A stretch of 64,000 bases of DNA. Source: Morinoia aosen. Lineage: Eukaryota > Arthropoda > Malacostraca > Amphipoda > Talitridae. The stretch is taken from assembly GCA_030386875.1 (NCBI GenBank), contig CM059562.1, forward strand, positions 76,504,095 to 76,568,094, given 5' to 3'. The notes beneath the pieces were generated by a model, which saw only the letters and a list, made by a program, of their open reading frames with translations, was not told where the DNA came from and did not search any database. The stretch's first letter is position 1, and every line of letters begins with the position of its first letter. The position numbers were made by a program, and so were the translations under genes. Below, piece by piece: positions 17,519-59,591 of this stretch.

Positions 17519-17870
17519 GACCCCTCAGGGGGATACAACTATTGTATCTATGGGAATTAGCGCTCCCAGGGGGACTATGTGAGGGCCAGAGCTAAAAAGT
17601 TAGGTAGGCTTTCTTTTTGTTGAAACGGAATAGGTTTTTGTTTTGTTACGGACCATCTTTTTTCGATTCACTGCTGTCCTGTTTTTCAGCACCTACTACT
17701 TTCTTCTTCAACTTTTTCTTGTTTAGTGATCTTCTTTCTTAGCTTACTGTTTCTATGCACCTTATGCATAGATTTTACGTTCCTTCGACTCCATACTAAA
17801 TGTTGCCTTCATCCTTCCTCTCTTGGAACATCTTTGTCGTGGAAAAGGAGGCTAAAACTTTCTTATACAA
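17519..17870 (+). repeat. Dispersed repeat family R, short subfamily copy
   Basis: Well-preserved head CCCCTCAGGGGGATACAACT and GCGCTCCCAGGGGGA. It lacks the roughly 25-bp TTGTGTGGGAACACA core: TTTCTATGCAC runs almost directly into the CTTATGCATAG segment. This deletion is shared with the copies at 18551 and 21843. Confidence 0.85.
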
Positions 17871-18550
17871 TAATAATAATTTGTCTATGATGAATATTAT
17901 GACTCATGAACAAGAAATTTATTATTGTCAATAACGATTGACTGTAGTTAATTTCAAATATAGACTGAGGTAATATTATACATTAACTTATATATATTGT
18001 ATAACAGTTAACATTTCTCGATCACTATTGTTTCATTAAATATAATGCGTTAATGAACTCAGCTAAAAAATAGGTATGTATGTAACTGATCATTTAAATT
18101 AGTTTTTCTGATCCATTTTACCTTGTTCCGTTCCCCATAAAGATATAAAACCTTCCAGAGCACTTGAATAATTATAACAGATAATTGTCGTTATTCAAGC
18201 ATTATGATTTTCAAATATTCTTATCTTTCACGAAGTTGACACCGATGACGTCCCTGGTTCACCACCCGTTTTCATGACGACTGAACACAGCCGCACCCAA
18301 CACACGTGGCACGGGAATGCTCTCCTGATGATTAGCAATATTTCATAACAAATTTTAGGCTCATAAATCATAGGGTTTTCCACCGCATGCTATAAGGCAT
18401 ATCCGAAATTATGCGCCATTTTCCGATGAAATAAATCAAAATCTTCAATTACGCTTTACGTTCCACTATTCGCATTGTTTACGCACGTGTTGTATAACAG
18501 TGTAAATTTTCCTATCTCTAAGTTATGGTGAATATTATGTGGCTCTTTTT

Positions 18551-18916
18551 TACCCCTCAAGGGGATACAATTATTGTATCTTTGGGAACTAGCGCTCCCA
18601 GGGGGACAATGTGAGGGCCCGAGCTGAGAGTTAGGTAGGCTTTCTTTTTGTTGAAACAGCATAGGTTTTTGTTTTGTTACGGACCAACTTCTTTTCGGCT
18701 CGCTGCTGTCCTGTTTTTTCAGCACCTACTACTTTCTTCTTCAACTTTGATCTTGTTTAATGATCTTCTTTCTCATCTTACTGTTTCTGTGCCCTTTCTG
18801 CATAGATTCCACGTTCCCTTAACTCCATACTAAATGGTGCCTTCTTCCTTCCTCTCTTTGGATCTCATTCGTTGAGGATAGGGAGGCTTAAACTCACTAA
18901 TAATCTAATAATCTAA
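18551..18916 (+). repeat. Dispersed repeat family R, short subfamily copy
   Basis: Very similar to the copy 1 kb upstream, with the same internal deletion, and ends in a tail of TAATCTAA units. CCCCTCAAGGGG at its start is a small perfect hairpin. Confidence 0.85.
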
Positions 18917-21842: not shown

Positions 21843-22110
21843 TTGAGATGTAGGCCTTCTTTTTGTTAAAATAAAATGTTTTCGTTTTGTTGAGGACCAT
21901 CTTTTTTCTGTTCACTGCTATCCTATTTTTCAGCACCTTGCTTCTTCGACTTTGATCTTGTTTCATAGTCTTATTTCTCAATTTACTGTTTCCATGCCCT
22001 TTCTCCTCAGATTCCGCGATTCCTTTAACTCCATACTAAATGGTGCCTTCCTCCTTCCTTTCTTTGGATCGCCTTTGTGGCGGATAGGTAGGTATAAACT
22101 AATAATCTAA
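21843..22110 (+). repeat. Dispersed repeat family R, 5'-truncated short-subfamily copy
   Basis: Starts at GTAGGCCTTCTTTTTG, lacks the head, has the internal deletion of the short subfamily and ends with TAATAATCTAATC. Confidence 0.85.
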
Positions 22111-22163
22111 TCTAGTCGACATTTACCTCACCGAGATAACTTTCCTCAATACAATCACCGAGA

Positions 22164-24086: not shown

Positions 24087-24857
24087 CGAGGCCTGTCGAA
24101 AAAGTATCCGACCTTAATTTTTCCCGCGCAAAGTAGTGATTCTAAGGCGGCGCCACTGTGCACGGTGGAAGGAGGAATCTTAATGCGCATGCTTGACTTT
24201 TTTCACCGCATTCACTTGGGCCAGTCACTGGCTGGTGGTCGCCAAGTAAGGTGCTGTTCTAAGTGTTTGTCGGATTTAGTTTTCTTGCAAGATGACTGAA
24301 CGAATTGAGCAAAGACACTGCATCAAATTTTGTCAAAAGCTTGGTGATTCTCAAATTGAAACAATTCGTAAGATTCAGCAGGTGTTTGGGGAAGATGCTA
24401 TGGGTGTAACACAAATTAAGGAGTGGTTCAACCGATTCAAAGATGGCCGCACATCAGCGGAGAGTGAGCAGCGTTGTGGCAGGCGTTGTGGCAGGCCGCA
24501 CATTCATCCCATTTGATCCGCAATTTCTTGGCCAAACATGGAATTACGACCGTTCGCCAACCTCCCTACTCTCCAGACCTGGCTCCTTGCGACTTCTGGT
24601 TGTTTCCAAAATTGAAGACACCACTGAAAGGATCCCGTTTTGAGAGTAGAGAAGAGATAATGCGGAACGCGACGACAGAGCTGAACACCATTCCAAAAGA
24701 AGACTTCCAGAGGTGTTTCCGGCAGTGGAAGGATCGGTGGGCTAAGTGTGTGGAAGCACAAGGAGCCTACTTTGAAGGGGATTAGGGTCCCAACCCCGTC
24801 AGGTTGTTGAAGTATTTTTTCTGGCCAAAGGTCGGATACTTTTTCGACAGGCCTCGT
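24087..24857 (+). mobile_element. Internally deleted mariner with perfect inverted ends
   Basis: A 771-bp element flanked by TA (24085-24086 and 24858-24859). The terminal inverted repeats begin CGAGGCCTGTCGAAAAAG and match perfectly for 29 bp (24087-24115 against 24829-24857). Full mariners are about 1.3 kb, so roughly 0.5-0.6 kb is missing from the middle. The perfect ends suggest recent movement, which must have relied on a transposase from another copy. Confidence 0.93.
24292..24785 (+). pseudogene. mariner transposase, central part deleted
   Basis: The N-terminal helix-turn-helix region is intact from the ATG at 24292 (MTERIEQRHCIKFCQKLG ... VTQIKEWFNRFKDGRTSAE) for about 64 residues. 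The sequence then jumps, with a frame change, to the C-terminal third: HGITTVRQPPYSPDLAPCDF with the third catalytic Asp of the D,D34D triad, then WLFPKLK and a tail ending YFEGD at 24785. The first two catalytic Asp blocks are missing, so it is catalytically dead, although the DNA-binding half might fold. At the junction (24472-24495) the 12-bp segment GCGTTGTGGCAG is nearly duplicated, a likely scar of the deletion. Confidence 0.9.
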
Positions 24858-25889: not shown

Positions 25890-26678
25890 TACTCAGCTCG
25901 TCAGGAGTATAGCACATACTTCAGAACAGACAAGGTCCTTCCCGATGATCCAACAGCGGCTGACTGCTATCCAGCTGATTTTTTAATTTACTTGTGCCTT
26001 CCGGGATGAATGCCACCTAATAGACTTCAATTGAAACCACAATCGATCATGAATCTTACTAGAATAGAAACATGTGAATTCGAATGGTTTATGCAATGGC
26101 CCCAGGTTCGACGTTCTGTGATTGCATCCACAACATTCAATAATTGAAGCAACTGATATCAGCGGTAATTTGATCGCCAGAAGCGTGTTGATTCCGAGAC
26201 TAAAGCTCGATCGCACCAGATGATACGAAAATCCCATGTATACCGGTAAGGACGCAATTTTTAGTGAAACTGTCATGCCATGACGGTAAACAAGAGTCAG
26301 GGACAAACGTGTGACAAAGTTGGCTTTCCATGCGTTCGTAAGCAGGAAGATGGAAAAATTGTAGTAATTGACTCAGATAAAAAAGAGAATGTGGCGGCAG
26401 AACAGTCGCCAAAAAATTTTTGCAGACAAATATTAGCATGCCTTTAAAGAAATCCTTTGCACTGCTTTAATTAGACTTTGAAATCTATACTAAATCAGAC
26501 TGTAAATAAAACTTTCTTGATTACTTCTGTATTCAAAACATTTTTGACAAAACCGTTGTCGAAGGATAATTCTCGACTGTGGTACTTAATGATTAATAAA
26601 ATACATAAAATTCGATTGTAATATCGATCGTGAAATTTAAATGGTACTGGCTGGTCTATAATAATTAAATCGTTCACT
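25890..26678. other. Intergenic sequence
   Basis: No supported gene. Minus-strand frames of up to 107 codons (25983-26306) show no recognisable motif. Confidence 0.35.
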
Positions 26679-27048
26679 CCTCAGAGAGATAAAACTACTG
26701 TATCTATGGGAATTTGCGCTCTTAGGGGGAAAATGTGAGGTCTCTATATAGCTGGAGGAAGCGTAAGCCTTCTTTTTATTATAACAAGATGGGTTTTTGT
26801 TTTGTAGTGGGCCACATTTTTCGGCTCACTACTGTCCTGTTTTTCAGCCCTTATTACTGTCTTCTCTAACTTTTATCTTGTTTGATAAACTTTCTTTTCT
26901 TACTGTTTCTATGTGCAAGGGATTTTGAGCGAGAACACGCCGTGTGCATATGTTCCAAATCTCTGAGCTCCATGCTAAATGGTGCCTTCATCCTTCCTCT
27001 CTTTGGGGCACCTTTGGTGTGGTTGGGGAGGCCTAAACTATCTCATGA
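26679..27048 (+). repeat. Dispersed repeat family R, full-length copy
   Basis: Head CTCAGAGAGATAAAACTACTGTATC through TTTTTCAGCCC and the GCGAGAACACGCC core to GGGGAGGCCTAAACT. Near complete. Confidence 0.85.
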
Positions 27049-27132
27049 TTTAATTGTTCAAAATCCCGTTGTAGCAAATCAATGTTCTCTTATAATGTTA
27101 CTCAGGCTTAAATAAAGATTTACCATGTGGGC

Positions 27133-33431: not shown

Positions 33432-36400
33432 ATGAAGGTAATTCCTCTTCCTTCTCGCTCTCCGTGTTGACTTCTGCAAAACGGCCAACTTTTCTCCACT
33501 GCCGGGCTTTCGTCGCCGAGTTTTCGGGAGGTTCTCAAATTGAAGAAACACTGACGACTTGTCGTAGAATTGCGTCACCATTTTTCTTGCACCTGCAGTA
33601 AAAATTGTTTTCTAGAGGTGCAGTCGACGATTTGAATTGTGTTGAAGTTTTTCTTTTCCTATAACTTTTCCTATTTCCTATAGATATAATATATTATAAA
33701 ACATTTTAAATGATCAATTTCTTGGTAAATATTTTTTTTATTTCTGCATGAATATAAAATGTCTAACAACAAACTAGCTAAAGTATTTCCACATTAAGAT
33801 GTCTGTGCAGCTCCAACGACAGCTTTCCACATGTTCATACGAACACCAAATGGCATAGAAATCACGGCTCCTACCCATTAAATTTCGCGCCATAAATTTT
33901 TGAATTTTTTTACTAATTTTTAACATATGCCAAATAATTGATGATGTTAGGGAACACCGTGAAGTACTACATCCCTCTTAAAATTCAGCAGAACAATAAA
34001 TAATGTCAAAGATGATTTCGAGAAAATAGGTGACACTGCTGGGATTTCGACAGAAGATAAAATATTATTGCGAAGTACGGCAATAAATGAATAATATTAA
34101 GAATTGTAGCAAATGAGTAAATATTGTTCAAGACCACATCATAATCTGTTGATTGCGAGTGTATTTCTGTTGATTTCCATTGTTATCACTCCTACTTAAG
34201 CACAAGGAAAAATATTTAAACAACTGTAAAACATCCAAAATATCGATGACGCTACTGAAAGAAATAACTGGTGAAATTAACCTCCATCCTTTTTTAGATC
34301 CAATTGTTGCGTTTCACTATCCTCAAGCTCTTGATTAAATTTACTCTAAGTCTTTAATATTATGTAGCGCTTTTGCTGTATAAACATATTTCTAAAATAC
34401 TTTGTATTTCAGGTCTCCTTGCTCTGGATCTGCGCACTGCCGACTCTTGCTCTCTACTGCGCTGCATTCGAAGACTACAAAGACGACGGCGAAGGCCTTG
34501 CGGAGGAAGGGCATCAGTTTGACGACCGGTATCCGGCTTTTCAAGGCACTGCCAGGGATCATCGTAGCGTTCCCAAGACTCTAGGAGATCTTCAAGACTC
34601 GCAGACAGCTGACACGAGTCACAGGCAATGGAGCACTAGAATAGACTCCAATAATGGGCCCAGGGCTTACCGAAGCAACTGGAGAACACTTGATGGCAGG
34701 TCCAAAGTCGCCAACTGGCAAAGTCCGAGCTTCGCTGATGAAGTCGAAAATGTAGGATTTGCAGTTTACGATGATGAAGATTACTATCATGATCTGGACG
34801 GCATATTAGACAGATCAGTTTATGATGACTTGAACTGGAATTTAAATTCTGATTACGATGCTCAGTATGAATATACAGTTCCTGTTTTGAGGAGCCAGCG
34901 AGGCAAAGATGGTCCTTTCACTAGAGCTTTGGGTGCTTTCATTCAACCTCAGAAAGATTTTCCCAATGTACGGCCTAATCATCCACGCCCGTGGAATACG
35001 GTAATAAATACCTTCTCTCCCACTCAGTCTCGTGAGAAAAATTTGAATGTACATCGAAGCACAAGTTCTGCTTGGGGACCTCCACAGTCCCAGTTGCTCG
35101 CCTCAGCACCAACTATCCCTGTGAGGATGAACTCTCCACCTAGAGTAAGGGGAGCGAACTTTGGCTCTAAATTTATGGTTCAAGATGTAGGTGATGGTAT
35201 TTATACGTCACCATTTACATATCCCGCAAACTTCCCCATTAATGATCGAAGTAAAAAGAAGAAAAAAAAGTTGAGCTCGAATCCGCTGATTAGGATGAGA
35301 GAGTTTCTTCTAGGCGGTTACGAGCAGCAAGATACTGAGGAAAAACAAAACGATGAACAAGAACAGTTGGGAAATAACTTCTATTATTCGATAGCCCGAG
35401 AAAGAACCCTGAAGGATGAAAACACTTCTACCGATTCAGGAGGAAAAGCGAATATTTTACTCGTAGTCAATAAGGAAGGAGAAGATTCAATGTCCAAGAA
35501 ATCATCCGTTCCAAAATTCCCCCAAGGCCGCCCATACTTCGATCCAAAGTCATCAGCAAAGCCAATTGATTTCGATAAAACAGAGCAAGGAGAACCATTA
35601 ATCATAATCGACCTCGAGAAGGTCACGAAACTTGTAAAACAAGACGACTCTTCCGTTCAACCTGAAAGTGATAAGAAGCCTACAGATAACAAAAAGCCAA
35701 TTCCAGAAAATACAAGGAAGCCATTAGAAAATGTCGACTACACTGTACCAGTTCTTCCTCCGCGTTTACCCCACATAGAAGATTATTACGGATCTCTTGG
35801 AAACAATGACGTACTTCTTCTCTCACCACCGATAGGTGACAATTCTGATAGTGTTCAAAATTTACAAGATGATATGTTAGGCGCATTCTTAAATCCATTT
35901 TTGTACTCCGATGAGCTGCACGATTACAATCTGAACGACGACTTTAGCTCAGATGCTTACCCTCACCAACCAACATCTGATTCAATTTCTGTCAGCCCAC
36001 ACATGCCCTTCCGTAAAAACGTTTTGTTCAATCAACGCCCTCCTTTTTCTTCAGGCCTCCGACGCGTCCACGCAACTCAACCCAAGAAAATTAAAATCGT
36101 CAAAACGGGCGTCAGACCCTCGTTTCTACGCAAACCTCCGCGGCCTTACGGTTACCCTCAAACACATTTGCCTTATCCTCCTCTTCCAGTAACAAAGCCG
36201 TACGCCCCAGTTCACAATCCTCCGCTCTACGGTCACCACGGACACGGACAAAAGCCCCTCTTCAAGCCCCCATATTTGCATCACAAAGACGCTCACGGCT
36301 CTGGACAGGCACACAAGCACCATAATAAAGGTAGTTCACTGATCATTCTAGAAAATACATACCCTAAAGGGGATAGTTATTTTCCTAAAAAACCGGGTGT

Positions 36401-36923
36401 TTACAATTACGAGCACGAGTCCTTAGGCGTTTCTCCTTACGACCACAATACTTACGTTAAGGAGTTCAGTCACTTTTTGCCTAAGGATGATCACAAAGAC
36501 ATCCTGCTGGAATACGAAGCTAATAAGAAAGAAGATATCAAAGGCGTAGCTCTTCTGATTGCACGAGGACATGAACAACAGAAGACTTTTCTGCCGTATG
36601 AGAATTATGCACCCCACAGTTCCAATTTACGCAGGCGGAATTTTGATGTTAATGACCCCAAACATGATGCATCAACCTACTTTGCCGAGCTAGAATTCAA
36701 AAATAGAACCTCTATCCTATCCTCTGAACAACTGTATCTCGAAAATGAAGCGCAACTGCCCGAAGAGGATTTGGGCCACCGCGACCAAAATTCCCGGGGC
36801 AGAAGAAGGAAAAAAATTCGAGTTATCGAGCCCGGCAGTTTCTCCTCTCTGGAAGAGTGGACTGAAGACTCATCGACAGTCATCAAATCAGGAGGAGGAT
36901 CTATTCCGGAAGTTTCTGAGTAG
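33432..36923 (+). CDS. Secreted cysteine-free His/Pro/Tyr-rich protein, two exons
   Basis: Proposed structure: exon 1 codes only Met-Lys (ATGAAG, 33432-33437), followed by the donor GTAATT. The intron is 33438-34412, ending TTTGTATTTCAG. Exon 2 is 34413-36923, ending TAG. The joined start reads MKVSLLWICALPTLALYCAA, a textbook signal peptide cleaved before FEDYKDD. The protein is about 838 residues. I see no cysteine after the signal peptide. An acidic, Tyr-rich N-terminal part is followed by a six-Lys run (residues about 283-288), a Pro/His/Tyr-rich stretch encoded around 36100-36330, an NRTS glycosylation site and an RGRRRKK run (about 797-803) that could be a furin-type site near the C-terminus. 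The motif YTVPVL occurs twice (residues 156 and 445). This suggests a disordered extracellular or cuticle-associated protein. I do not recognise the family. Exon 2 is secure; the exon 1 assignment is inference. Confidence 0.8.
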
Positions 36924-37003: not shown

Positions 37004-37362
37004 ACCTCTTTATGAGAATTAGCAATCCCAGAGAGAAAATGTGAGGCCCCGAGCAGAGAGTGAGGAAGGCCTTCTTTTTGTTGGAATAGAATAGATTTTC
37101 TGCCTTCTTACGGACCATCTTTTTTTGGTTCACAGGTGTCCTGTTTTTCAGCACTTGGCTTTCTTCTACAACTTTTATCTTGCATCATGAACTTTCATCT
37201 TAACTCACTGTTTCTATGTGCAAGTTATCTTGGGTAGAAACACACCTCATGCATAGATTTATTTCACTTTCCTCTGACTCCGTGCTAAATAGTGCCTTCA
37301 TCCTTCCTTCTTTGAAGCATCATTGTTGCGTTTAGTGAGGCTTGAACCAACTTATTTAATTT
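37004..37362 (+). repeat. Dispersed repeat family R, copy downstream of the gene
   Basis: Runs from TATGAGAATTAGCAATCCCAG through GGCCTTCTTTTTGTTGGAATAG and GTAGAAACACACC to GTGAGGCTTGAACC. It lies about 80 bp after the stop codon in the same sense as the gene, so it may be part of the 3' untranslated region. Confidence 0.85.
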
Positions 37363-37636
37363 AATAATGGGTGTTTCAAAGAACACTGGAGCAAAATATT
37401 ATTCATTCGTTACAGTTATGATCTATTATCCTAATGAGTGTATACTGTATACCAGATGTCCCGCAGTTTCAAGGTGAAAACCAAGCAGGTACAATCACCA
37501 ATGAATGCGACTGTGAATCAAATTCAAAATCGGCAGGTTTGTGCTGCGTCCAAGAGTATACTAGTGCAGAATGTTCCTACTGTGTTCTGCGAAGTTCACA
37601 ATCTTATGTATACCGTTAAGCAACAAAAAAGGAGTA

Positions 37637-41483: not shown

Positions 41484-43661
41484 TTTATACAAGGTAATGA
41501 TAGAGGTAGTGAAGTTCAAGTTGATGAATTAGTAGTCAATGGTTGCAGTGTGCAAGATAGGATGCAAATGGTGAAAGCAGTTGAAGAATACTGGGAGGAC
41601 ATTGGTGGAATGAATGAGCAGGTTACAGATGATGAACCAATAAATTTTCTGATAGATGAACATGAACTGCAAATGGAAGACGAAATCACTTGTGAAGAGA
41701 TTGTAAGTTTTTTGAAGAAAGTGAAAAATGGAAAGGCATGTGGTCCTGATAAGATACCATATGAGTTCTATAAATGTGGAGGAGAGAGTGTAGTCAGTAT
41801 GTTGAAATGTTTATTTGATGAGATATGGAAGAGTGAAAGAGTACCTGATGACTGGAACAAGTGTAATGTAGTTCTGTTGCATAAGGGTGGACATAAGAGT
41901 ATGAAAGAACTTAAAAATTACAGACCAATTGCACTGGGTGACACCGTATGTAAGATCTTTTGTGGTATTTTGAATGAGAGAATGAAAAATTTAGTTGAGG
42001 AATTAGGAGTCCTGGGAGAAGAACAGAATGGTTTTAGGCAAGATAGACGGGGGGAGGATAATCTGTTCGTAGTGAGTGAAATAATTGAGCGAATGAAGAA
42101 GGATAACAAGAAGGTATATTTAGCATTCATGGATATTGAAAAGGCGTATGACAGAGTGGATCGGGTTAGGCTGTTTGAAATTTTGAGAAAAGTTGGTTTT
42201 AGCAGAAAAATAGTGAACATTGTACAGAGTCTGTATGAGAACACAAGTGCTATCTACAGGTTAGGAAATTTGGAAACAGGGCAAGTGAGGAGTGTTAGAG
42301 GAGTGAGACAGGGCTGTACTCTGTCCCCCCTGTTGTTTGGATTGTACACAGAAGAATTAGCAGTTCGACTGAGAGGGAGTGGTTTAGGACTGAAAGTTGG
42401 TAATGAGAGACTGAGCTGTTTGTTGTATGCTGATGATGTGGTTGTGGTTAGTGAATGTGGTCATGAACTACAAAGGATGCTTGACATTGTGAATGGATAT
42501 AGTACAGATTTCAAGATGAACTTTGGTGCCGATAAAAGTAAGGTCATGGTTATAAATAGTGATGAGACTGATAGAGACAGACTGTGGAATATTGGAGAAA
42601 TCAGAATAGGTAGAACAAAAGAATACAAATATCTAGGTTGTATGATGAGTGAAGATGGATGTACTAGAACTAAAGGTGAGAAAGTGGCTAAAGCAATGCA
42701 GTGGAGTGGACGGTTAGGTAGTGTGGCCAGATACAGAGCAAACAAGTACGAATGTGTGAGAGGAATGTGGAAGTATGTTGCTGTACCTAGTGTCATGTAT
42801 GGTATGAGTGCTCTTGCTTGGAATGGAAGTGATCCTGAAAAGCTGGATGTGATACAAAATAAGGTAGGACGTGTAGCATTGGGTGCTCCGAAATGGACAG
42901 CTATAGAAGCCATTAGAGGTGACCTAGGGTGGAGCCTATTTTCAGAAAGAATAATGAAAGCTGTGCTGAATTATAAGGTGAGAATTGAAAGAATGCAGAA
43001 TAGCAGGTGGGTAAGGCGAATCTTTGAATGGAATCTGAGTGTAAGCTATTGGGAGAAAGTATGTTGGGGGCATGCAAGGAAACTCAGTATGCAAAAGATT
43101 ATTCATGTTAGAATTGGGAGACCTGTGGATGACTGGAGTTTAATAAATGCAGGAGGTGTAGGGCCTGAGTGGGACTGCAAGAGGTGGAAGAAAGAGATTG
43201 AGAGACAAACAAAAGAGTATGGATTGAATAAGTGGAAGCTTAGCATGATGCGGAAGCCTACACTTAACTGGTATATGAAAAAGAAAGCACCTAAGTTTGA
43301 GCTGTTCTATGATGGTAGTTTTGGAAGTCAACTCTTGTTTGCTGTGAGGTGTAAGTCATTAAGTGTGAACAGACGTACTTGGAGATGGAATGAGAATAAT
43401 AACAGATTATGTCAGCAGTGTAATAGTGGAGTAGAGGAAACAATTGAGCATTTTGTGCTGGAATGTAGTAAGTATGAGCAAGAGAGAGAGAGTTTTATGA
43501 ATGTGGTGTCTGAGCAGTATGGAGAGAATGAGTGGAATGCCAGATGTGCTGAAGATGATTGCGGTATGAGCTGTCTTGCTGGATTGGATCAGGAGTGTAA
43601 TGCGAGTATCACTGAGGCTATGAAATTGTTTCTTGTGCGTGCCTGGAGTAAGAGACAGTGA
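41484..43661 (+). pseudogene. LINE ORF2 of copy A, lacking the endonuclease
   Basis: Open from the truncation point (FIQGNDRGSEVQVDELVVN) to the TGA at 43659-43661, about 725 residues without a stop. It contains the reverse transcriptase domain with DIEKAYD (motif A), GVRQGCTLSPLLFGLY (motif B) and LLYADD (motif C), then the C-terminal CCHC finger. Only about ten residues differ from copy B. There is no natural start codon; a GTG occurs at 41550. Open but truncated, so dead for retrotransposition on its own. Confidence 0.9.
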
Positions 43662-43914
43662 CTGGAATGAGCCAGTCAGGTAGAATAGGCTGTAATGACC
43701 CAATGTGCCTGGGGATGGTGTTTTGACACACTGGCTATCCCAGTGACGCCATCCAAAGGCAGCTTGTGACAAGGATTGGTAGATCCTGAGTAGTTTAGTG
43801 GACAAGTCTGGTACCAGGCGCTGAACTCTTTGTGTGATAACTGTGGAGGGAATTGTAGGCCGTTACAAAGGCCCCGACGCTGTCGGCCCTCAATTTCAAG
43901 TTCAAGTTCAAGTT
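41484..43914 (+). mobile_element. LINE copy A, 5'-truncated
   Basis: First of five head-to-tail copies of one CR1/L2-like LINE. It matches the full-length copy B from B position 46827 to the end, including the 3' untranslated region with the hairpin CCGACGCTGTCGG and the tail ending TTCAAGTTCAAGTT. The endonuclease half is absent. Because later copies lie inside its former tail, A was probably the first to insert here. Confidence 0.93.
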
Positions 43915-44385
43915 AGTGCTAGCCGGCACCGTATTAGTTGGTTATTTCAAAGTGTGTCTGTGAACATCTTTCCGACTTCTGTTCCGAGCGGTGTGCACGT
44001 GTTTCTGGGTCCTCCGACGAATATTGTGGTGAATTAAAGTGAAGTTGCTAAAAACTGGTATAGTTTGTATATTCACGTGAGTAAAGTGTGTGACTTTGTA
44101 TGGAGTGCTCGTGAGAGTAGTTTTTTTGTTGCGTGAGAGTTGAGACTGAGCATTGGACTTTGGTGTGGTGACTTGCAATTTTTGACTGAGGTGTTTTGAC
44201 TGGTAGTTAAGCTTTCTTTGCATATAAAGAGTATAGTGTTTGACATTGTAGAGAGTGACTGTGAGTAGTAGGAAACGTTTTTGTTTCTTTTTTTTTTTTT
44301 GATAACTTGATTTTCAGTAGATTTGGTGAGTGAAGACTCCTTCTGCCTGTGAAATTTGTACTGAGATAGAAGTCTGTGTCTGAGG

Positions 44386-45585
44386 ATGGCAAGAAATAGG
44401 ACTGGTCGTAGGAAGGGAGGTGCAAGTGGAATGGATGAGGAGATTGAGTGCATGACTTGTAAAGAGTGGGTAGATATAGATGCATGCAAAGGTTTGAGAG
44501 AGATGAGTCGGAGGAAGTTGAATGATCTTGTGTTTACGTGCTGGAAATGTTTGAATGACGAGAGAAAGAAGTTGGAAGAGGAGGTTGAGAGATTGACAAT
44601 TCTGATGGTTGCTTTAGAGGCTGATTTGAAGGATGGAAGGAAGTTGAATGAAGGAAAGAATGAGAATGGTGCAAATGCAGTGAATGAAGAGGTAAATGGT
44701 GGTGGTGCAAGGAGTACAAATGAAGTGGATGATGGTGCAAGGAGTGCAAATGAAGTGGATGATGGTGCAAGGAGTGCAAATGAAGTGGATGATGGTGCAA
44801 GGAGTGTGAATGCAATAAATGAAGTGAATGGTGGTGCAAATGTGCCAGATGAGAGTAGAAGGATGAATGAGCATGATGAAAGAAGTACGAATGGGAAGAG
44901 AGTGAAGGAGCAACCTGTTGATATGCCACATGAGGTGCAGGCGCCTGTAGTGGAAGTGAATGTAAGGAAGATGGATGGAAAGAGTGATGTGAGTGGAAGA
45001 GTTGAACGAAAGAGTAGTATGAAAGGGAGAGTGAGACCTACGATTAGAATATGTGGTGACAGCATGGTGAAGAATGTGGATAGGTTTGTGAGTATGACTG
45101 ACCGTAGTGGATGTACGAGCATGAGAGGAAAGGGAGTGAATGAGATTTGTAGGCATGCTGAGGAAGTGATAGATGGAATGGATGAAGGGATGGTTGTACT
45201 GCAAGGAGGTGGCAATGGATTGCTTGAATGTGGGAGAGAGCGTACGGTGAATGCAATTATGAATGTTGTTGAAAGGGCGCGAAAGAAGAATGTAAGAGTG
45301 GCTGTGACCAGTCTGCTGAGAAGGCCTGCATGTGGTGAGGAGTATGAAAGGGTGCGAAAGGAGGTGAATAGGGAAGTGCATAAAAGGATCATGAGTATGA
45401 AAGCTGAGAGTATGAGAAAGCGTGAAATGGGTTCCAGCTTCCTTGATATGGATAACCTGATCCAGAGTGGGTGTTTTCGTGGAGATGGAGTCCACCTTAC
45501 TCAAGAAGGTGAGATGAAACTCTCCAGGAGATACATCCAGTGGATTGGGTGTACTCATATTGTAATGGAAGGTGGAACTGGATGA
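44386..45585 (+). CDS. LINE ORF1: PHD-like finger, coiled coil and SGNH esterase
   Basis: 399 residues. The ATG at 44386 has a good start context (A at -3, G at +4). Residues 22-55 hold a PHD-like zinc finger: C22-x2-C25-x2-W28, C34, C52-x2-C55. A Glu/Lys/Leu-rich coiled-coil helix follows (about 58-80), then a low-complexity region with the 10-residue repeat NEVDDGARSA. The C-terminal half is an SGNH/GDSL hydrolase: GDS with nucleophile Ser226, GGGN with oxyanion Asn277, and DGVH with Asp367 and His370. PHD plus esterase ORF1 proteins are known from CR1 elements, where they are thought to help the RNP bind membranes or RNA; the true substrate is unknown. The stop UGA is directly followed by the ORF2 AUG in the same frame. 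Confidence 0.92.
   Translation: MARNRTGRRKGGASGMDEEIECMTCKEWVDIDACKGLREMSRRKLNDLVFTCWKCLNDERKKLEEEVERLTILMVALEADLKDGRKLNEGKNENGANAVNEEVNGGGARSTNEVDDGARSANEVDDGARSANEVDDGARSVNAINEVNGGANVPDESRRMNEHDERSTNGKRVKEQPVDMPHEVQAPVVEVNVRKMDGKSDVSGRVERKSSMKGRVRPTIRICGDSMVKNVDRFVSMTDRSGCTSMRGKGVNEICRHAEEVIDGMDEGMVVLQGGGNGLLECGRERTVNAIMNVVERARKKNVRVAVTSLLRRPACGEEYERVRKEVNREVHKRIMSMKAESMRKREMGSSFLDMDNLIQSGCFRGDGVHLTQEGEMKLSRRYIQWIGCTHIVMEGGTG
44702..44820. repeat. 30-bp in-frame tandem repeat inside ORF1
   Basis: Just over three near-identical units of GAAGTGGATGATGGTGCAAG plus AGTGCAAAT encode a ten-residue repeat. The period preserves the frame. It lies between the coiled coil and the esterase domain, so it may act as a length-variable linker. 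Confidence 0.9.
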
Positions 45586-48500
45586 ATGGAAAGCTGTCAG
45601 AGCAAAAATGAAAAATGTTGTGAATTGTCCAATAGTGTTGTAAGGTTTGGATGTATAAATGTGCGTGGATGGAATGCAGGAAAGTTAAATGACCTTGTAG
45701 CAGAATTTGAGAATGGAGATTTGGATTGTGTTGGTGTAGTAGAGACCCAAATGCGTGATAGAGTCAGTTTAAAGTGTAAGGAGAGTAAGTACTACATGAT
45801 TGGAAAAGGGCGTGTAAGTTGGCAAAAAAGAGGTGGTGGAGTTGGTCTCATTGTAAAAAATGCTCTAAATTGGAAATTAGAAGAAATTCCTGTTGGAAAT
45901 GAACCTGAGAGTGAAGATCTGTTAGTAATAAAGTGTGAAAGAATGCATGCCAGAGAATGTGTTATTGTGGTTGTATGCTATATGACAACTGATGGTTTTT
46001 TAGCTCATCAAGAGAATGTAAAAAAGTATGAAATATTAACAAGAATTGTGCAAGAGCATTGCAGATGCCCTCTGATTTTAATGGGTGATATGAATGGCCA
46101 TGTTGGTATACTGGGTGAGCCTGTGAATGCAAATGGACAAAAATTGATTGATTTCTGTGATGAGAATGAACTTGAGAACCTAAATGTAACAATAGGAAAT
46201 GGCTTGCATACATGGCAAAGCAGGGAATGTAAAACTGCAATTGACTATATGATAGTGAATAGTAGAGCAAGAGAGTGTGTCAAAGAAATGTTTGTAGATG
46301 AAGATGATTTTGATATTGATAGTGACCATAAAATGCTTGTACTAGAATATAATTGGGGTGGAAAGGAGCCGATGCAGAAGGCCAGCAGAGTAAGAGAAAA
46401 TTGGCGTATTAAAATGGCAAACTGGGAAGAATTTAGAAATGAAGTGAGTAGATGTAACTGGAACAGGTGTGGAAATGTAAATGACCTAAATAAGGAGATT
46501 GCAAGAACCTTGTATGATGTGGCAGAGCAAAAGATCGGTAGAATGAAATGCAGGAAAAGTACAGGGAATGCTAGGTGGTTTACGAGTGAGATAAAGGAAG
46601 AACGAACGAAAAGGAAGACTTTAAATAAAAAACAACGCAGTATGAGGAAAATGTATGAAAGACGCAGAATTACTGAGGATGAATGGCAGAGTGTATGGAA
46701 TGAGTACAAGGACCAGCAGAAGAAAGTAAAGAGAATGATCAATGAGGCTAGGGTTAAAGAAGAGAGACACCAAGTTGAAAATCTAAGAAAGAAAGGTCTA
46801 GATGGAATAAAAGATTGGTATAGGTTTATACAAGGTAATGATAGAGGTAGTGAAGTTCAAGTTGATGAATTAGTAGTCAATGGTTGCAGTGTACAAGATA
46901 GGATGCAAATGGTGAAAGCAGTTGAAGAATACTGGGAGGACATTGGTGGAATGAATGAGCAGGTTACAGATGATGAACCAATAAATTTTCTGATAGATGA
47001 ACATGAACTGCAAATGGAAGACAAAATCACTTGTGAAGAGATTGTAAGTTTTTTGAAGAAAGTGAAAAATGGAAAGGCATGTGGCCCTGATAAGATACCA
47101 TATGAGTTCTATAAATGTGGAGGAGAGAGTGTAGTCAGTATGTTGAAATGTTTATTTGATGAGATATGGAAGAGTGAAAGAGTACCGGATGACTGGAACA
47201 AGTGTAATGTAGTTCTGTTGCATAAGGGTGGACATAAGAGTATGAAAGAACTTAAAAATTACAGACCAATTGCACTGGGTGACACCGTATGTAAGATCTT
47301 TTGTGGTATTTTGAATGAGAGAATGAAAAATTTAGTTGAGGAATTAGGAGTCCTGGGAGAAGAACAGAATGGTTTTAGGCAAGATAGACGGGGGGAGGAT
47401 AATCTGTTTGTAGTGAGTGAAATAATTGAGCGAATGAAGAAGGATAACAAGAAGGTATATTTAGCATTCCTGGATATTGAAAAGGCGTATGACAGAGTGG
47501 ATCGGGTTAGGCTGTTTGAAATTTTGAGAAAAGTTGGTTTTAGCAGAAAAATAGTGAACATTGTACAGAGTCTGTATGAGAACACAAGTGCTATCTACAG
47601 GTTAGGAAATTTGGAAACAGGGCAAGTGAGGAGTGTTAGAGGAGTGAGACAGGGCTGTACTCTGTCCCCCCTGTTGTTTGGATTGTACACAGAAGAATTA
47701 GCAGTTCGACTGAGAGGGAGTGGTTTAGGACTGAAAGTTGGTAATGAGAGACTGAGCTGTTTGTTGTATGCTGATGATGTGGTTGTGGTTAGTGAATGTG
47801 GTCATGAACTACAAAGGATGCTTGACATTGTGAATGGATATAGTACAGATTTCAAGATGAACTTTGGTGCCGATAAAAGTAAGGTCATGGTTATAAATAG
47901 TGATGAGACTGATAGAGACAGACTGTGGAATATTGGAGAAATCAGAATAGGTAGAACAAAAGAATACAAATATCTAGGTTGTATGATGAGTGAAGATGGA
48001 TGTACTAGAACTAAAGGTGAGAAAGTGGCTAAAGCAATGCAGTGGAGTGGACGGTTAGGTAGTGTGGCCAGATACAGAGCAAACAAGTACGAATGTGTGA
48101 GAGGAATGTGGAAGTATGTTGCTGTACCTAGTGTCATGTATGGTATGAGTGCTCTTGCCTGGAATGGAAGTGATCTTGAAAAGCTGGATGTGATACAAAA
48201 TAAGGTAGGACGTGTAGCATTGGGTGCTCCGAAATGGACAGCTACAGAAGCCATTAGAGGTGACCTAGGGTGGAGCCTATTTTCAGAAAGAATGATGAAA
48301 GCTGTGCTGAATTATAAGGTGAGAATTGAAAGAATGCAGAATAGCAGGTGGGTAAGGCGAATCTTTGAATGGAATCTGAGTGTAAGCTATTGGGAGAAAG
48401 TATGTTGGGGGCATGCAAGGAAACTCAGTATGCAAAAGATTATTCATGTTAGAATTGGGAGACCTGTGGATGACTGGAGTTTAATAAATGTAGGAGGTGT

Positions 48501-49002
48501 AGGGCCTGAGTGGGACTGCAAGAGGTGGAAGAAAGAGATTGAGAGACGAACAAAAGAGTATGGATTGAATAAGTGGAAGCTTAGCATGATGCGCAAGCCT
48601 ACACTTAACTGGTATATGAAAAAGAAAGCACCTAAGTTTGAGCTGTTCTATGATGGTAGTTTTGGAAGTCAACTCTTGTTTGCTGTGAGATGTAAGTCAT
48701 TGAGTGTGAACAGACGTACATGGAGATGGAATGAGAATAATAACAGATTATGTCAGCAGTGTAATAGTGGAGTAGAGGAAACAATTGAGCATTTAGTGCT
48801 GGAATGTAGTAAGTATGAGCAAGAGAGAGAGAGTTTTATGAATGTGGTGTCTGAGCAGTATGGAGAGAATGAGTGGAATGCCAGATGTGCTGAAGATGAT
48901 TGCGGTATGAGCTGTCTTGCTGGATTGGATCAGGAGTGCAATTTGAGTATCATCGAAGCTATGAAATTGTTTCTTGTGCGTGCCTGGAGTAAGAGACAGT
49001 GA
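45586..49002 (+). CDS. LINE ORF2: APE endonuclease, reverse transcriptase, CCHC finger
   Basis: 1138 residues, fully open. The N-terminal apurinic-like endonuclease has N25 (INVRGW), E53 (VETQ), D168/N170 (GDMNGH) and D247-H248 (SDHK), which is the complete metal and catalytic set. A basic linker (about 290-420) leads to the reverse transcriptase: NYRPIALGD, LDIEKAYD with catalytic D630, GVRQGCTLSPLLFGLY, and YADD at 728-731 with both Asp residues. A thumb-like region follows, then a CCHC finger (C1056-x2-C1059-x9-H1069-x4-C1074) near the end. The enzyme nicks target DNA and copies its own RNA there. It starts one codon boundary after the ORF1 stop, in the same frame, so expression probably uses reinitiation or stop-codon bypass. 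Confidence 0.95.
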   Translation: MESCQSKNEKCCELSNSVVRFGCINVRGWNAGKLNDLVAEFENGDLDCVGVVETQMRDRVSLKCKESKYYMIGKGRVSWQKRGGGVGLIVKNALNWKLEEIPVGNEPESEDLLVIKCERMHARECVIVVVCYMTTDGFLAHQENVKKYEILTRIVQEHCRCPLILMGDMNGHVGILGEPVNANGQKLIDFCDENELENLNVTIGNGLHTWQSRECKTAIDYMIVNSRARECVKEMFVDEDDFDIDSDHKMLVLEYNWGGKEPMQKASRVRENWRIKMANWEEFRNEVSRCNWNRCGNVNDLNKEIARTLYDVAEQKIGRMKCRKSTGNARWFTSEIKEERTKRKTLNKKQRSMRKMYERRRITEDEWQSVWNEYKDQQKKVKRMINEARVKEERHQVENLRKKGLDGIKDWYRFIQGNDRGSEVQVDELVVNGCSVQDRMQMVKAVEEYWEDIGGMNEQVTDDEPINFLIDEHELQMEDKITCEEIVSFLKKVKNGKACGPDKIPYEFYKCGGESVVSMLKCLFDEIWKSERVPDDWNKCNVVLLHKGGHKSMKELKNYRPIALGDTVCKIFCGILNERMKNLVEELGVLGEEQNGFRQDRRGEDNLFVVSEIIERMKKDNKKVYLAFLDIEKAYDRVDRVRLFEILRKVGFSRKIVNIVQSLYENTSAIYRLGNLETGQVRSVRGVRQGCTLSPLLFGLYTEELAVRLRGSGLGLKVGNERLSCLLYADDVVVVSECGHELQRMLDIVNGYSTDFKMNFGADKSKVMVINSDETDRDRLWNIGEIRIGRTKEYKYLGCMMSEDGCTRTKGEKVAKAMQWSGRLGSVARYRANKYECVRGMWKYVAVPSVMYGMSALAWNGSDLEKLDVIQNKVGRVALGAPKWTATEAIRGDLGWSLFSERMMKAVLNYKVRIERMQNSRWVRRIFEWNLSVSYWEKVCWGHARKLSMQKIIHVRIGRPVDDWSLINVGGVGPEWDCKRWKKEIERRTKEYGLNKWKLSMMRKPTLNWYMKKKAPKFELFYDGSFGSQLLFAVRCKSLSVNRRTWRWNENNNRLCQQCNSGVEETIEHLVLECSKYEQERESFMNVVSEQYGENEWNARCAEDDCGMSCLAGLDQECNLSIIEAMKLFLVRAWSKRQ

Positions 49003-49257
49003 CTGGAATGAGCCAGTCAGGTAGAATGGTCAGTAATGACCCAATATGCCTGGGGATGGTGTTTTGACGCACTGGCTATCCCAGTGACGCCATCCAATGG
49101 CAGCTTGTGACGAGGATTGGTAAATCCTGAGTAGTTTAGTGGACAAGTCTGGTACCAGGCGCTGAACTCTTTGTGTGATAACTGTGGAGGGAATTGTAGG
49201 CCGTTACAAAGGCCCCGACGCTGTCGGCCCTCAATTTCAAGTTCAAGTTCAAGTTCA
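49003..49257 (+). promoter_or_regulatory. LINE B 3' untranslated region, hairpin and hexamer tail
   Basis: This 3' region is shared by all five copies. Near its end lie GGCCGTTACAAAGGCC, able to pair GGCC with GGCC, and CCGAC-GCT-GTCGG, a perfect 5-bp hairpin, just before the tail CAATTTCAAGTTCAAG... The 3' structure plus short repeat is what the reverse transcriptase of CR1/L2-type elements is thought to recognise. The functional role here is inference. Confidence 0.7.
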
Positions 49258-50270
49258 GGTATAGAGGCCATTAGAGGTGACCTAGGGTGGAGCCTATTTT
49301 CAGAAAGAATGATGAAAGCTGTGCTGAATTATAAGGTGAGAATTGAAAGAATGCAGAATAGCAGGTGGGTAAGGCGAATCTTTGAATGGAATCTGAGTGT
49401 AAGCTATTGGGAGAAAGTATGTTGGGGGCATGCAAGGAAACTCAGTATGCAAAAGATTATTCATGTTGGAATTGGGAGACCTGTGGATGACTGGAGTTTA
49501 ATAAATGTAGGAGGTGTAGGGCCTGAGTGGGACTGCAAGAGGTGGAAGAAAGAGATTGAGAGACAAACAAAAGAGTATGGATTGAATAAGTGGAAGCTTA
49601 GCATGATGCGGAAGCCTACACTTAACTGGTATATGAAAAAGAAAGCATCTAAGTTTGAGCTGTTCTATGATGGTAGTTTTGGAAGTCAACTCTTGTTTGC
49701 TGTGAGATGTAAGTCATTGAGTGTGAACAGACGTACATGGAGATGGAATGAGAATAATAACAGATTATGTCAGCAGTGTAATAGTGGAGTAGGGAAACAA
49801 TTGAGCATTTTGTGCTGGAATGTAGTAAGTATGAGCAAGAGAGAGAGAGAGGTTTATGAATGTGGTGTCTGAGCAGTATGGAGAGAATGAGTGGAATGCC
49901 AGATGTGCTGAAGATGATTGCGGTATGAGCTGTCTTGCTGGATTGGATCAGGAGTGTAATGCGAGTATCACTGAGGCTATGAAAGTGTTTCTTGTGCGTG
50001 CCTGGAGTAAGAGACAGTGACTGGAATGAGCCAGTCTGGTAGAATGGGCTGTAATGACCCAATATGCCTGGGGATGGCGTTTTGACACACTGGCTATCCC
50101 AGTGACGCCATCCAATGGCAGCTTGTGACAAGGATTGGTAGATCCTGAGTAGTTTAGTGGACAAGTCTGGTACCAGACGCTGAACTCTTTGTGTGATAAC
50201 TGTGGAGGGAATTGTAGGCCGTTACAAAGGCCCCGACGCTGTCGGCCCTCAATTTCAATTTCAATTTCAG
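49258..50270 (+). mobile_element. LINE copy C, 5'-truncated, ORF frameshifted
   Basis: Begins inside the C-terminal part of ORF2, equivalent to B near 48242, directly after the B tail. The former coding part ends at TGA 50018-50020. A one-base deletion near 49793 (GTAGGGAAAC against GTAGAGGAAAC) and two extra bases in the AGAGAG run near 49845 break the frame and destroy the CCHC finger. The tail is a variant, (AATTTC)n, ending TTTCAG. Confidence 0.9.
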
Positions 50271-50284
50271 GTTTGAAGTCAACT

Positions 50285-52461
50285 TGTGGCCCTGATAAGA
50301 TACCATATGAGTTCTATAAATGTGGAGGAGAGAGTGTAGTGAGTATGTTGAAATGTTCATTTGATGAGATATGGAAGAGTGAAAGAGTACCGGATGACTG
50401 GAACAAGTGTAATGTAGTTCTGTTGCATAAGGGTGGACATAAGAGTATGAAAGAACTTAAAAATTACAGACCAATTGCACTGGGTGACACCGTATGTAAG
50501 ATCTTTTGTGGGATTTTGAATGAGAGAATGAAAAACTTAGTTGAGGAATTAGGAGTCCTGGGAGAAAAACAGAATGGTTTTAGGCAAGATAGACGTGGGG
50601 AGGATAATCTGTTTGTAGTGAGTGAAATAATTGAGCGAATGAAGAAGGATAATAAGAAGGTATATTTAGCATTCCTGGATATTGAAAAGGCGTATGACAG
50701 AGTGGATCGGGTTAGGTTGTTTGAAATTTTGAGAAAAGTTGGTTTTAGCAGAAAAATAGTGAACATTGTACAGAGTCTGTATGAGAACACAAGTGCTATC
50801 TACAGGTTAGGAAATTTGTAAACAGGGCAAGTGAGGAGTGTTAGAGGAGTGAGACAGGGCTGTACTCTGTCCCCCTTGTTGTTTGGATTGTACACAGAAG
50901 AATTAGCAGTTCAACTGAGAGGGAGTGGTTTAGGACTGAAAGTTGGTAATGAGAGACTGAGCTGTTTGTTGTATGCTGATGATGTGGTTGTGGTTAGTGA
51001 ATGTTGTCATGAACTACAAAGGATGCTTGACATTGTGAATGGATATAGTACAGATTTCAAGATGAACTTTGGTGCAGATAAAAGTAAGGTCATGGTTATA
51101 AATAGTGATGAGACTGATAGAGACAGACTGTGGAATATTGGAGAAATCAGAATAGGTAGAACAAAAGAATACAAATATCTAGGTTGTATGATAAGTGAAG
51201 ATGGATGTACTAGAACTAAAGGTGAGAAAGTGGCTAAAGCAATGCAGTGGAGTGGACGGTTAGGTAGTGTAGCCAGATACAGAGCAAACAAGTACGAATG
51301 TGTGAGAGGAATGTGGAAGTATGTTGCTGTACCTAGTGTCATGTATGGTATGAGTGCTCTTGCTTGGAATGGAAGTGATCTTGAAAAGCTGGATGTGATA
51401 CAAAATAAGGTAGGACGTGTAGCATTGGGTGCTCCAAAATGGACAGCTATAGAAGCCATTAGAGGTGACCTAGGGTGGAGCCTATTTTCAGAAAGAATGA
51501 TGAAAGCTGTGCTGAATTATAAGGTGAGAATTGAAAGAATGCAGAATAGCAGGTGGGTAAGGCAAATCTTTGAATGGAATCTGAGTGTAAGCTATTGGGA
51601 GAAAGTATGTTGGGGGCATGCAAGGAAACTCAGTATGCAAAAGATTATTCATGTTAGAATTGGGAGACCTGTGGTCCTGTGGATGACTGGAGTTTAATAA
51701 ATGTTGGAGGTGTAGGGCCTGAGTGGGACTGCAAGAGGTGGAAGAAAGAGATTGAGAGACAAACAAAAGAGTATAGATTGAATAAGTGGAAGCTTAGCAT
51801 GATGCGGAAGCCTACACTTAACTGGTATATGAAAAAGAAAGCACCTAAGTTTGAGCTGTTCTATGATGGTAGTTTTGGAAGTCAACTCTTGTTTGCTGTG
51901 AGATGTAAGTCATTGAGTGTGAACAGATGTACATGGAGATGGAATGAGAATAATAACAGATTATGTCAGCAGTGTAATAGTGGAGTAGAGGAAACAATTG
52001 AGCATTTTGTGCTGGAATGTAGTAAGTATGAGCAAGAGAGAGAGAGAGTTTTATGAATGTGGTGTCTGAGCAGTATGGAGAGAATGAGTGGAATGCCAGA
52101 TGTGCTGAAGATGATTGCGGTATGAGCTGTCTTGCTGGATTGGATCAGGAGTGTAATGCGAGTATCACTAAGGCTATGAAAGTGTTTCTTGTGCGTGCCT
52201 GGAGTAAGAGACAGTGACTGGAATGAGCCAGTCTGGTAGAATGGGCTGTAATGACCCAATGTGCCGGGGGATGGTGTTTTGACACACTGGTTGTCCCGGT
52301 GATGCCTTCCAATGGAGGCTTGTGACAAGGATCGTAGATCCTGAGTAGTTTAGTGGACAAGTCTGGTACCAGGCGCTGAACTCTGTGTGAAAATTGTGGA
52401 GGGAATTGTAGGCCGTTACAAAGGCCCCGACACTGTCGGCCCTCAAGTTCAAGTTCAGTTC
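50285..52461 (+). mobile_element. LINE copy D, 5'-truncated, ORF broken
   Basis: Begins inside the reverse transcriptase region, equivalent to B near 47080. A nonsense change makes TAA at 50819-50821 (GAA in B). An 8-bp tandem-like insertion near 51673 (CCTGTGGTCCTGTGG) and two extra bases in the AGAGAG run near 52045 shift the frame. It keeps the YADD motif sequence but is dead. The tail reads CAAGTTCAAGTTCAGTTCAG. A 14-nt filler (50271-50284) separates it from the tail of C. Confidence 0.9.
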
Positions 52462-53049
52462 AGTTTTGGAAGTCAACTCTTGTTTGCTGTGAGATGTAAT
52501 TCATTGAGTGTGAACAGACGTACATGGAGGTGGAATGAGAATAATAACAGATTTTGTCGGCAGTGTATTAGTGGAGTGGAGGAAACAATTGAGCATTTTG
52601 TGCTGGAATGTAGTAAGTATGAGCAAGAGAGAGAAAGTTTTATGAATGTGGTGCTTGAGCAGTATGGAGAGAATGAGTGGTATGCCAGATGTGCTGAAGA
52701 TGATTGCGGTATGAGCTGTCTTGCTGGATTGGATCAGGAGTGTAATTTGAGTATCATTGAAGCTATGAAAATGTTTCTTGTGCGTGCCTGGAGTAAGAGA
52801 CAGTGACTGGAATGAGCCAGTCAGGTAGAATGGTCAGTAATGACTCAATATGCCTGGGGATGGTGTTTTGACACACTGGCTATCCCAGTGATGCTATCCA
52901 ATGGCAGCTTGTGACAAGGATTGGTAGATCCTGAGTAGTTTAGTGCACAAGTCTGGTACCGGGCGCTGAAATCTTGGTGTGAAAATTGTGGAGGGAATTG
53001 TAGGCCGTTACAAAGGCCCCGACGCTGTCGGCCCTCAAGTTCAAGTTCA
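52462..53049 (+). mobile_element. LINE copy E, shortest 5'-truncated copy
   Basis: Begins at AGTTTTGGAAGTCAAC, equivalent to the last 115 codons of ORF2. It stays open with the CCHC finger intact to TGA 52804-52806. The 3' untranslated region and tail end at CAAGTTCAAGTTCAA, after which unique genomic DNA begins. It shares with B the residues NLSIIEAM near the end and the GGTCAGTAATGAC 3' variant. Confidence 0.9.
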
Positions 53050-53260
53050 ACATTTGACTGAATAAAAAATCACTACTAAACGCCGCCTACGCAGACGTAT
53101 TGAAAGTTTGCCTTGAACCCGATGATATGTAAAATCAAAAGCGACTGTGCTGGAGAACAAAGGAAGAATAAATTAGATGTTCATTCGTTTCTAACAGCTC
53201 GTTCAAGTCAGGTGAGTGGGTAGTTGCTTCCTTTGGAGTGAATAATTTTTGTACGATTAA

Positions 53261-58901: not shown

Positions 58902-59591
58902 GACTATCATTAAGAATTTAAAGATGAAGAATACAGTACGGAGAGGTATCATATTTAATAGAATTTAACGAAGCTAAATTTAAAATATCTGAATTAGTCA
59001 ATTTTAAACGTTTCGGAGACCAGCTCCATCTTCAGTAAGTCTGAAAACATAAAAACCAAAATTGGTTAGTTCATGACAACAGTGAGAAAAGTGACAAAGT
59101 GATCGTCAAGAAGAAAAAAAAAGTTAGGATCGCCCAGCACCGCGGAGTTAGCTTTCGTATCGGGAGACCTTTAGCTCAACCTCCTCATTCATCATCTGTC
59201 TTCATACCGAACAGTGTAGCAGCCGTATTTCCGAAGACAATTTTTTTATTTTATGCTCTGCTCCTAACGAGTTAGTTTTGCTCATTTTAGAATCCCTTCG
59301 CATTGCAAAAGAGAAGCCACCTTTAAATAATGCTAATAGTGCATATCTCTTAGAAATGTTTGTATACATTTTTTTTCTTCTTTTTACCGATCACTTTGTC
59401 ACTTTTCTCACTGTTGTCATGAACTAACCAATTTTGGTTTTTATGTTTTCAGACTTACTGAAGATGGAGCTGGTCTCCGAAACGTTTAAAATTGACTAAT
59501 TCAGATATTTTAAGTTTAGCTTCGTTAAATTCTATTAAATATGATATCTATCCGTGCTGTATTCTTTGTCTTTAAATTCTTAATGATAGTC
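58902..59591. mobile_element. Long inverted-repeat element with about 220-bp arms
   Basis: The left arm (58902-59124, starting GACTATCATTAAGAATTTAA) and the right arm (59369-59591) are inverted copies with only scattered differences. They enclose a unique centre of about 245 bp with no ORF. Both arms contain CTGAAGATGGAGCTGGTCTCC followed by GAAACGTTTAAA, a phrase that recalls the terminal regions of some Penelope-like elements, but there is no polymerase here. No clear target duplication was identified. Confidence 0.85.

Follow-up and report, generated by a model that had tools for sequence, protein, structure and literature searches.

Same-strand arrays of a LINE in the amphipod Morinoia aosen, possibly built by repeated insertion at the 5' edges of resident copies

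Head-to-tail arrays of long interspersed nuclear elements (LINEs) are known mainly where a fixed site, as in ribosomal DNA (rDNA), or a chromosome end explains them. The tandem R1 arrays of Drosophila are described as same-strand copies that grow at their 5' side, and additional R1 elements appear to insert in the target-site duplication (TSD) at the 5' end of a resident R1 (PMC2718515). Zepp of Coccomyxa is reported to form clusters of nested copies of one LINE (PMC3446292), and the telomeric retrotransposons HeT-A/TART/TAHRE, MoTeR, FoTeR and Giardia GilM/GilT are described as head-to-tail arrays with 5'-truncated members and short junction repeats (PMC5537684, PMC7367193, PMC12857005). Here we describe five head-to-tail copies of one LINE in a stretch of 64,000 nucleotides from the amphipod Morinoia aosen (GenBank assembly GCA_030386875.1, contig CM059562.1, positions 76,504,095 to 76,568,094; hereafter the window), together with other copies of the family from the host genome (1.99 Gb, 29 contigs; genomic loci are given by L numbers). 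That such arrays arise through successive target-primed insertions, each in the orientation of a resident copy and at or beside its 5' edge, has in our judgement an even chance. Literature searches, several of them loose, gave no recognised description of LINE arrays of this kind.

This LINE resembles each of the described systems in part. Addition at the 5' end of a resident, as in R1, was found at five nested loci (one of them, L023, weak), and as a general direction of growth it is only suggestive. R1 is described as occupying a 28S ribosomal RNA site with a constant 14-bp TSD between copies, whereas here the sites vary, neighbours abut or stand up to ~70 nt apart, and neither a motif nor a constant spacer came to light. 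Zepp is reported to have one cluster per chromosome, probably centromeric (PMC3446292), whereas the junctions of this family are spread over many contigs. The telomeric retrotransposons are described as sitting at chromosome ends or telomere repeats, whereas this array lies 76.5 Mb into a 90.1-Mb contig with other DNA on both sides, and no telomere-type run (at least three units of TTAGG, TTAGGG, TCAGG or TTGGG) was found in the window. The likeness to telomeric retrotransposons that the original prediction drew, from the letters of the window, therefore holds for the shape of the array and fails for its interstitial place. Bov-B LINEs, with their microsatellite-like 3' ends, are another example of a LINE with an apurinic/apyrimidinic endonuclease (APE-type) that ends in a short repeat, according to PMC13295347.

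Self-BLAST of the window and inspection of the junctions confirm five same-strand copies (c1 to c5) at 41484-53050, of which c2 is full length and the other four are 5'-truncated, each at another point of the 5323 element positions. The rest of the 64-kb window holds no other piece of the LINE and no other AAGTTC tandem, and no Rfam match was found in the window. The features of the array, including the open reading frames (ORFs) of c2, are as follows.

41484-43914, plus strand: c1, element 2911 to the end; tail 43890-43914; 98.7% identical to c2 over 2431 bp; frame open from its start to the ORF2 stop
43915-43969, no strand: ~55 nt of apparently private DNA between the c1 tail and the conserved c2 start
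43970-49258, plus strand: c2, full-length LINE, both ORFs open; tail 49231-49258
44386-45585, plus strand: ORF1 of c2, 399 aa; CxxC pairs at 22 and 52, then a GDSL/SGNH-like domain
45586-49002, plus strand: ORF2 of c2, 1138 aa; APE-type endonuclease, reverse transcriptase and zf-RVT
49260-50268, plus strand: c3, 5'-truncated, element ~4330 on; 97.1% identical to c2; tail 50249-50268, a TTCAAT variant; frame with a 1-bp deletion and a GA insertion
50269-50284, plus strand: left copy of the putative c4 TSD, repeating the first 17 nt of c5
50285-52461, plus strand: c4, 5'-truncated, element ~3167 on; 96.9% identical to c2; tail 52443-52461; frame broken by a stop, an 8-bp insertion and a 2-bp insertion
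52462-53050, plus strand: c5, 5'-truncated, element ~4742 on; 95.4% identical to c2; tail 53035-53050
from 52462, plus strand: right copy of the putative c4 duplication, the first 17 nt of c5

Each of the four internal junctions coincides with the (TTCAAG)n-type tail in which the copy before it ends; given insertion within the array, four such hits would arise by chance at ~1e-7, a rough and post hoc figure. The original prediction saw no unique DNA between the copies, which has to be amended at two places, namely the ~55 nt before c2 and the 16-nt repeat of c5 before c4. The former look private to the locus because 10 of 26 copies of the youngest type (defined by a 3' end that matches that of c2 exactly across 158 nt) that were read at both ends match c2 only from element position 56-74 (L011, L012, L014, L020, L021, L028, L029, L033, L036, L038), and because the sequence before the conserved start differs among 20 further 5' ends. 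The 3' part of c2 is 100% identical to several genomic copies. An assembly artefact is unlikely, since the same architecture is found at many loci with different truncation points and flanks.

The order of insertion can be read where c4 meets c5. The bases at 50269-50284 agree at 15 of 17 positions with the start of c5 (its first 17 nt), directly behind the c4 tail. No position on either strand outside the array matches equally well, 52,408 being scored on the plus strand, and random controls gave 0 of 20,000 for non-array 16-mers and 63 of 20,000 for LINE 16-mers, the latter being the element's own copy of this segment. The simplest account is that c4 entered after c5 and at its 5' edge, because the 16 nt before c4 would then be a TSD of c5's first bases. 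In total, five loci show a newcomer lying ~10-55 bp inside the 5' end of a resident, which resumes behind the tail of the newcomer. For c4 this distance is 17 bp; in the L009 array it is 41 bp (element 1460-1500 stays upstream and the resident resumes at 1498), at L031 53 bp (3246-3298 upstream, resuming near 3285-3294), at L035 55 bp (2172-2226 upstream, resuming at 2221), and at L023, the weakest case, ~10 bp, read from 10 nt only. Over the 1658 bp that were compared, the newcomers show 99.9-100% identity to c2. Two residents are damaged, a sign that they are the older partners: that of L023 is interrupted by ~541 bp of inserted DNA, with an overlap of 8 bp, and has no LINE near its expected 3' end, and that of L032 ends at element 5096 without a tail.

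The original prediction also held that the copies are separate insertions and not duplications of one copy, and this is supported by the different truncation points, by an excess of synonymous changes, and by the repeat of c5's first bases that flanks c4. Among private coding changes of c1-c4, 21 of 41 are synonymous, where the absence of selection would give a fraction of 0.20-0.29 (p 1e-5 to 1.4e-3), so the copies stem from separate sources that were under constraint. The rate of private substitutions per kb is 27.5 in c5, 13.9 in c4, 5.5 in c1, 5.0 in c3 and 4.6 in c2. Changes that break the ORFs number 5 in 2692 nt of c3 and c4 versus 0 in 6795 nt of c1 and c2 (p 0.0018, or 0.023 without the insertion common to c3 and c4). 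Sites 48943 and 49179 show all four combinations among the copies, which suggests recombination, conversion or template switching among lineages to some extent.

Counts across the host genome support self-association as a genome-wide property of the LINE family. We sampled 40 youngest-type (c2-type) 3' ends out of 877 first-look candidates and scored 40 of 169 older, c5-type ends; both samples are best matches and not random draws, and the array's own locus (L016) and its own c5 were removed before counting, leaving 39 in each. A same-family, same-strand copy follows directly or within ~70 nt at 13 of the 39 c2-type ends, versus 2 of the 39 c5-type ends (L070, L082; p 0.003). With the own locus included, the c2-type count is 14 of 40, eleven being among the first 30 (L009, L013, L014, L015, L016, L017, L019, L023, L031, L032, L035) and three among the next 10 (L040, L042, L046). 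At least four arrays contain three or more copies (L009, L013, L015, L019). We did not score as neighbours same-family copies after 40-85 unaligned nt (L041, L045), relatives of 70-81% identity (L011, L021, L022) or, in the second sample, L064, L066, L087, L090, L093, L094 and the antisense L058. Both flanks were fetched for 26 c2-type copies (L009, L010, L018 and L039-L048 lie outside this subset), and nine of these have a downstream neighbour within 70 nt where 0.126 would be expected from local LINE density (P 2e-14). The expectation rests on 74 kb of other flank, which contain four LINE segments on the same strand; compared with that flank, the density of same-strand neighbours is ~70 times higher in the 90 nt next to the tail. 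The pattern that the original prediction named as refuting, other copies at random sites with no tail neighbours, gave a mixed outcome: about one-third of the youngest-type copies are closely followed, behind the tail, by a neighbour on the same strand, and about two-thirds are not. Viewed from the 5' side, the genome contains 307 exact conserved 5' starts, with AAGTTCA 56-86 nt upstream at 17 distinct places and the reversed pattern, which does not control for distance, at none. A family tail stands just upstream in 5 of the first 20 listed starts (L151, L152, L156, L160, L162), of which L151 and L152 have near-identical flanks.

Our first working view, from the window alone, was that of the original prediction, in which the LINE targets its own tail. 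On that view the youngest copies should stand behind tails; it was dropped because the upstream flanks of youngest-type copies show a family tail in only 1 of 26 (L013). Nine of the same 26 have a neighbour in front of which they stand, and in the first 20 the counts are 8 downstream versus 1 upstream (p 0.039). Including L018, whose 5' end is visible and which has no neighbour on either side, gives 9 of 27 and 1 of 27. Of the 17 c5-type copies with a visible 5' end, three (L118, L121, L125) are preceded by a family tail at a distance of no more than 28 nt. The companion proposal, that the same microsatellite serves as target, fared no better: of 568 (AAGTTC)4 places counted, eight were read and all eight proved to be tails of the element, AAGTTC-type repeats are absent from upstream flanks save behind family tails, and no independent (AAGTTC)n target could be seen. 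The backward reading of the pattern yields this repeat in a shifted phase and is uninformative as a control. An apparent long TSD at L028 was rejected, the site being a tandem repeat with a period of ~65 bp. At L015 and L032, the upstream copy has beside its 5' end 14-16 nt that match a different region of the element; these may be patches left by template switching.

In the mechanism that we put at an even chance, a newcomer would take the orientation of a resident and insert at or beside its 5' edge. A junction tail would then be that of the newcomer, which lies upstream, and would abut the 5' end of the resident without being the target, so that arrays would grow mainly on their 5' side, at edges of varying sequence. 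It may be that the upstream half of the resident's site stays at its 5' end and is reused, or, alternatively, that an unfinished 5' junction acts as a primer. From the five nested junctions we infer that the remaining ones formed in the same way, with growth mainly 5'-ward. On the wider reading, the LINE would have no fixed sequence specificity and would prefer the 5' edges of its own resident copies as targets, each insertion seeding the next, so that interstitial arrays extend 5'-ward and take in roughly a quarter to a third of sampled copies; we give this slightly less than an even chance.

Several observations weigh against insertion at 5' edges. The outer flanks of the window array show no TSD, and solitary copies show none clearly; overlaps between newcomer and resident vary from ~2 to 17 bp; and no common motif was found in 28 upstream flanks, no 7-mer being present in more than four of them. 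In the window, c1, c2 and c3 have similar numbers of private changes, which do not mark c1 as the youngest. The contrast of nine to one becomes nine to two when L010 is counted, which lies outside the 26 and is, by coordinates, the third copy of the L009 array, stands behind a tail and is the resident of the nested case. In addition, the youngest-type sample was picked by 3' identity to c2, and its partners therefore tend to look different; in six pairs that were not so selected, the upstream copy is younger in three and older in three, by our own reading. Identity to c2 was rejected as a measure of age because several residents belong to other young subfamilies. Given these selected partners and other young subfamilies, the missing outer TSD and the missing motif, 5'-ward growth is shown at individual loci and is only suggested for the family as a whole.

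Template jumping, in which the reverse transcriptase breaks off anywhere along one LINE RNA and takes up the 3' end of a second one, so that several copies enter in one event, would account for varied 5' ends on 3' tails without host DNA and for mixed subfamilies. The R2 reverse transcriptase is reported to jump between templates in vitro (PMC2718515), and the neighbours at L009 and L017 are nearly equally close to c2. However, at c4, L009, L031, L035 and, weakly, L023, resident sequence stands on both sides of the newcomer, damage is seen in the residents of L023 and L032 but not, by sequence identity, in the newcomer, and the ORF-breaking changes differ between c3 and c4 on the one hand and c1 and c2 on the other. 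Jumping also predicts that copies stand behind a tail as often as in front of another copy, and the 26 copies gave one versus nine. We consider it unlikely as the source of these arrays. Rather less likely still is entry of the newcomer into the (AAGTTC)n tail of a resident, as first proposed. Such a tail would pair with the tail of the LINE RNA, all four window junctions lie at tails, L013 and c2 of the window do stand behind one, and the c4 duplication starts at the boundary of tail and c5. Against this are the single youngest-type copy among 26 directly behind a family tail, the c5-type tails, longer exposed, of which only two in 39 have a downstream neighbour, and the four further nested cases, which lie within LINE 5' ends and not in tails.

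Adjacency could also arise without recognition of a resident if the LINE returned to the same host places, through hot sites or chromatin. The young pair L029/L030 stands head to head with 5' ends ~140 bp apart, antisense neighbours are present at L019, L027 and L035 and antisense nesting at L117/L058, and the left flank of the window array contains a 14-nt perfect palindrome that 3 of 100 shuffles reach (0.03); that ORF1 has a PHD-like finger at its N-terminus, formed by the CxxC pairs, is a guess. Yet the adjacency is sharp, with the ~70-fold density confined to 90 nt of the tail, no 7-mer is common to more than four of the 28 upstream flanks, and inverted repeats in these 28 flanks are mostly not above shuffles, and we regard such clustering as very unlikely to be the explanation. 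Duplication at the DNA level, unequal exchange or assembly error is the most improbable account, with hardly any weight in our assessment. The conflicting sites 48943 and 49179 do suggest some recombination or conversion, and some loci are duplicated segments (L061/L062; L146/L148; L151/L152), but the truncation point differs at each junction, private changes show a synonymous excess, and the same architecture occurs with different partners at many loci.

By its sequence the element is an APE-type non-long-terminal-repeat retrotransposon, that is a LINE, because one ORF combines an AP-endonuclease-like domain with a reverse transcriptase and because 5'-truncated copies have a common 3' end. 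ORF2 matches Exo_endo_phos_2 (6.3e-10), RVT_1 (1.4e-31) and, under the cut-off, zf-RVT (0.0031) in Pfam, and LINE-1 ORF2p and R2 in PDB. ORF1 matches Lipase_GDSL at E 5.7e-4, under the Pfam gathering score, and PDB entry 4iyj at E 8.6e-4; its structure model, with a mean pLDDT of 51.5, was set aside. All three motifs sought were present in ORF1 (GDS 224, GGGN 274, DGVH 367), and we take them to be of GDSL/SGNH type. As to a place in the CR1/L2 group, which is marked by a GDSL/esterase ORF1 and by an ORF2 that groups with CR1 or L2 in phylogeny, the observations are these motifs and a GDSL match under its gathering score. Within the Jockey-superfamily set treated in PMC4120745, an esterase ORF1 is described for only two vertebrate groups. 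TSD lengths are given as 3-5 bp for L2 and CR1, 10-12 for RTE and ~15 for L1 (PMC4245944), and overlaps of ~2-17 bp do not decide the clade of this LINE. The RNA structure of the 3' end is not notable (z -0.76), no relatives were found by protein or by 3'-end pattern in viral_contigs and genome_contigs, and PHROGs gave no match. Copies at L124, L126, L129 and L023 are interrupted by inserts of several hundred bp with 8-bp LINE overlaps, such as a DNA transposon or a miniature inverted-repeat transposable element with 8-bp TSDs would leave.

Elsewhere in the window, positions 1028-4556 are a 13/26/39-bp tandem satellite of ~3.5 kb, and 34368-36920 on the plus strand is an 851-aa stop-to-stop open frame with a secreted-looking start and no Pfam match. 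Mariner-like Transposase_1 and DDE_3 fragments (DDE_3 under the cut-off) lie at 7944-8303 and 24468-24782. Several copies of one dispersed repeat family, ~68-86% alike, occur in the first 38 kb (17520-17877, 18552-18912, 21850-22111, 26673-27054, 37011-37368 and others), and an inverted repeat with 221-bp arms that are 95.5% alike spans 58902-59122 and 59371-59591.

That the copies of an array are joined through tails is not enough to identify the tail as the target. If insertion at resident 5' edges is true, scattered arrays at self-made edges would show how a LINE turns single copies into clusters, and the family would offer a natural system for what an integrating LINE reads at a junction.

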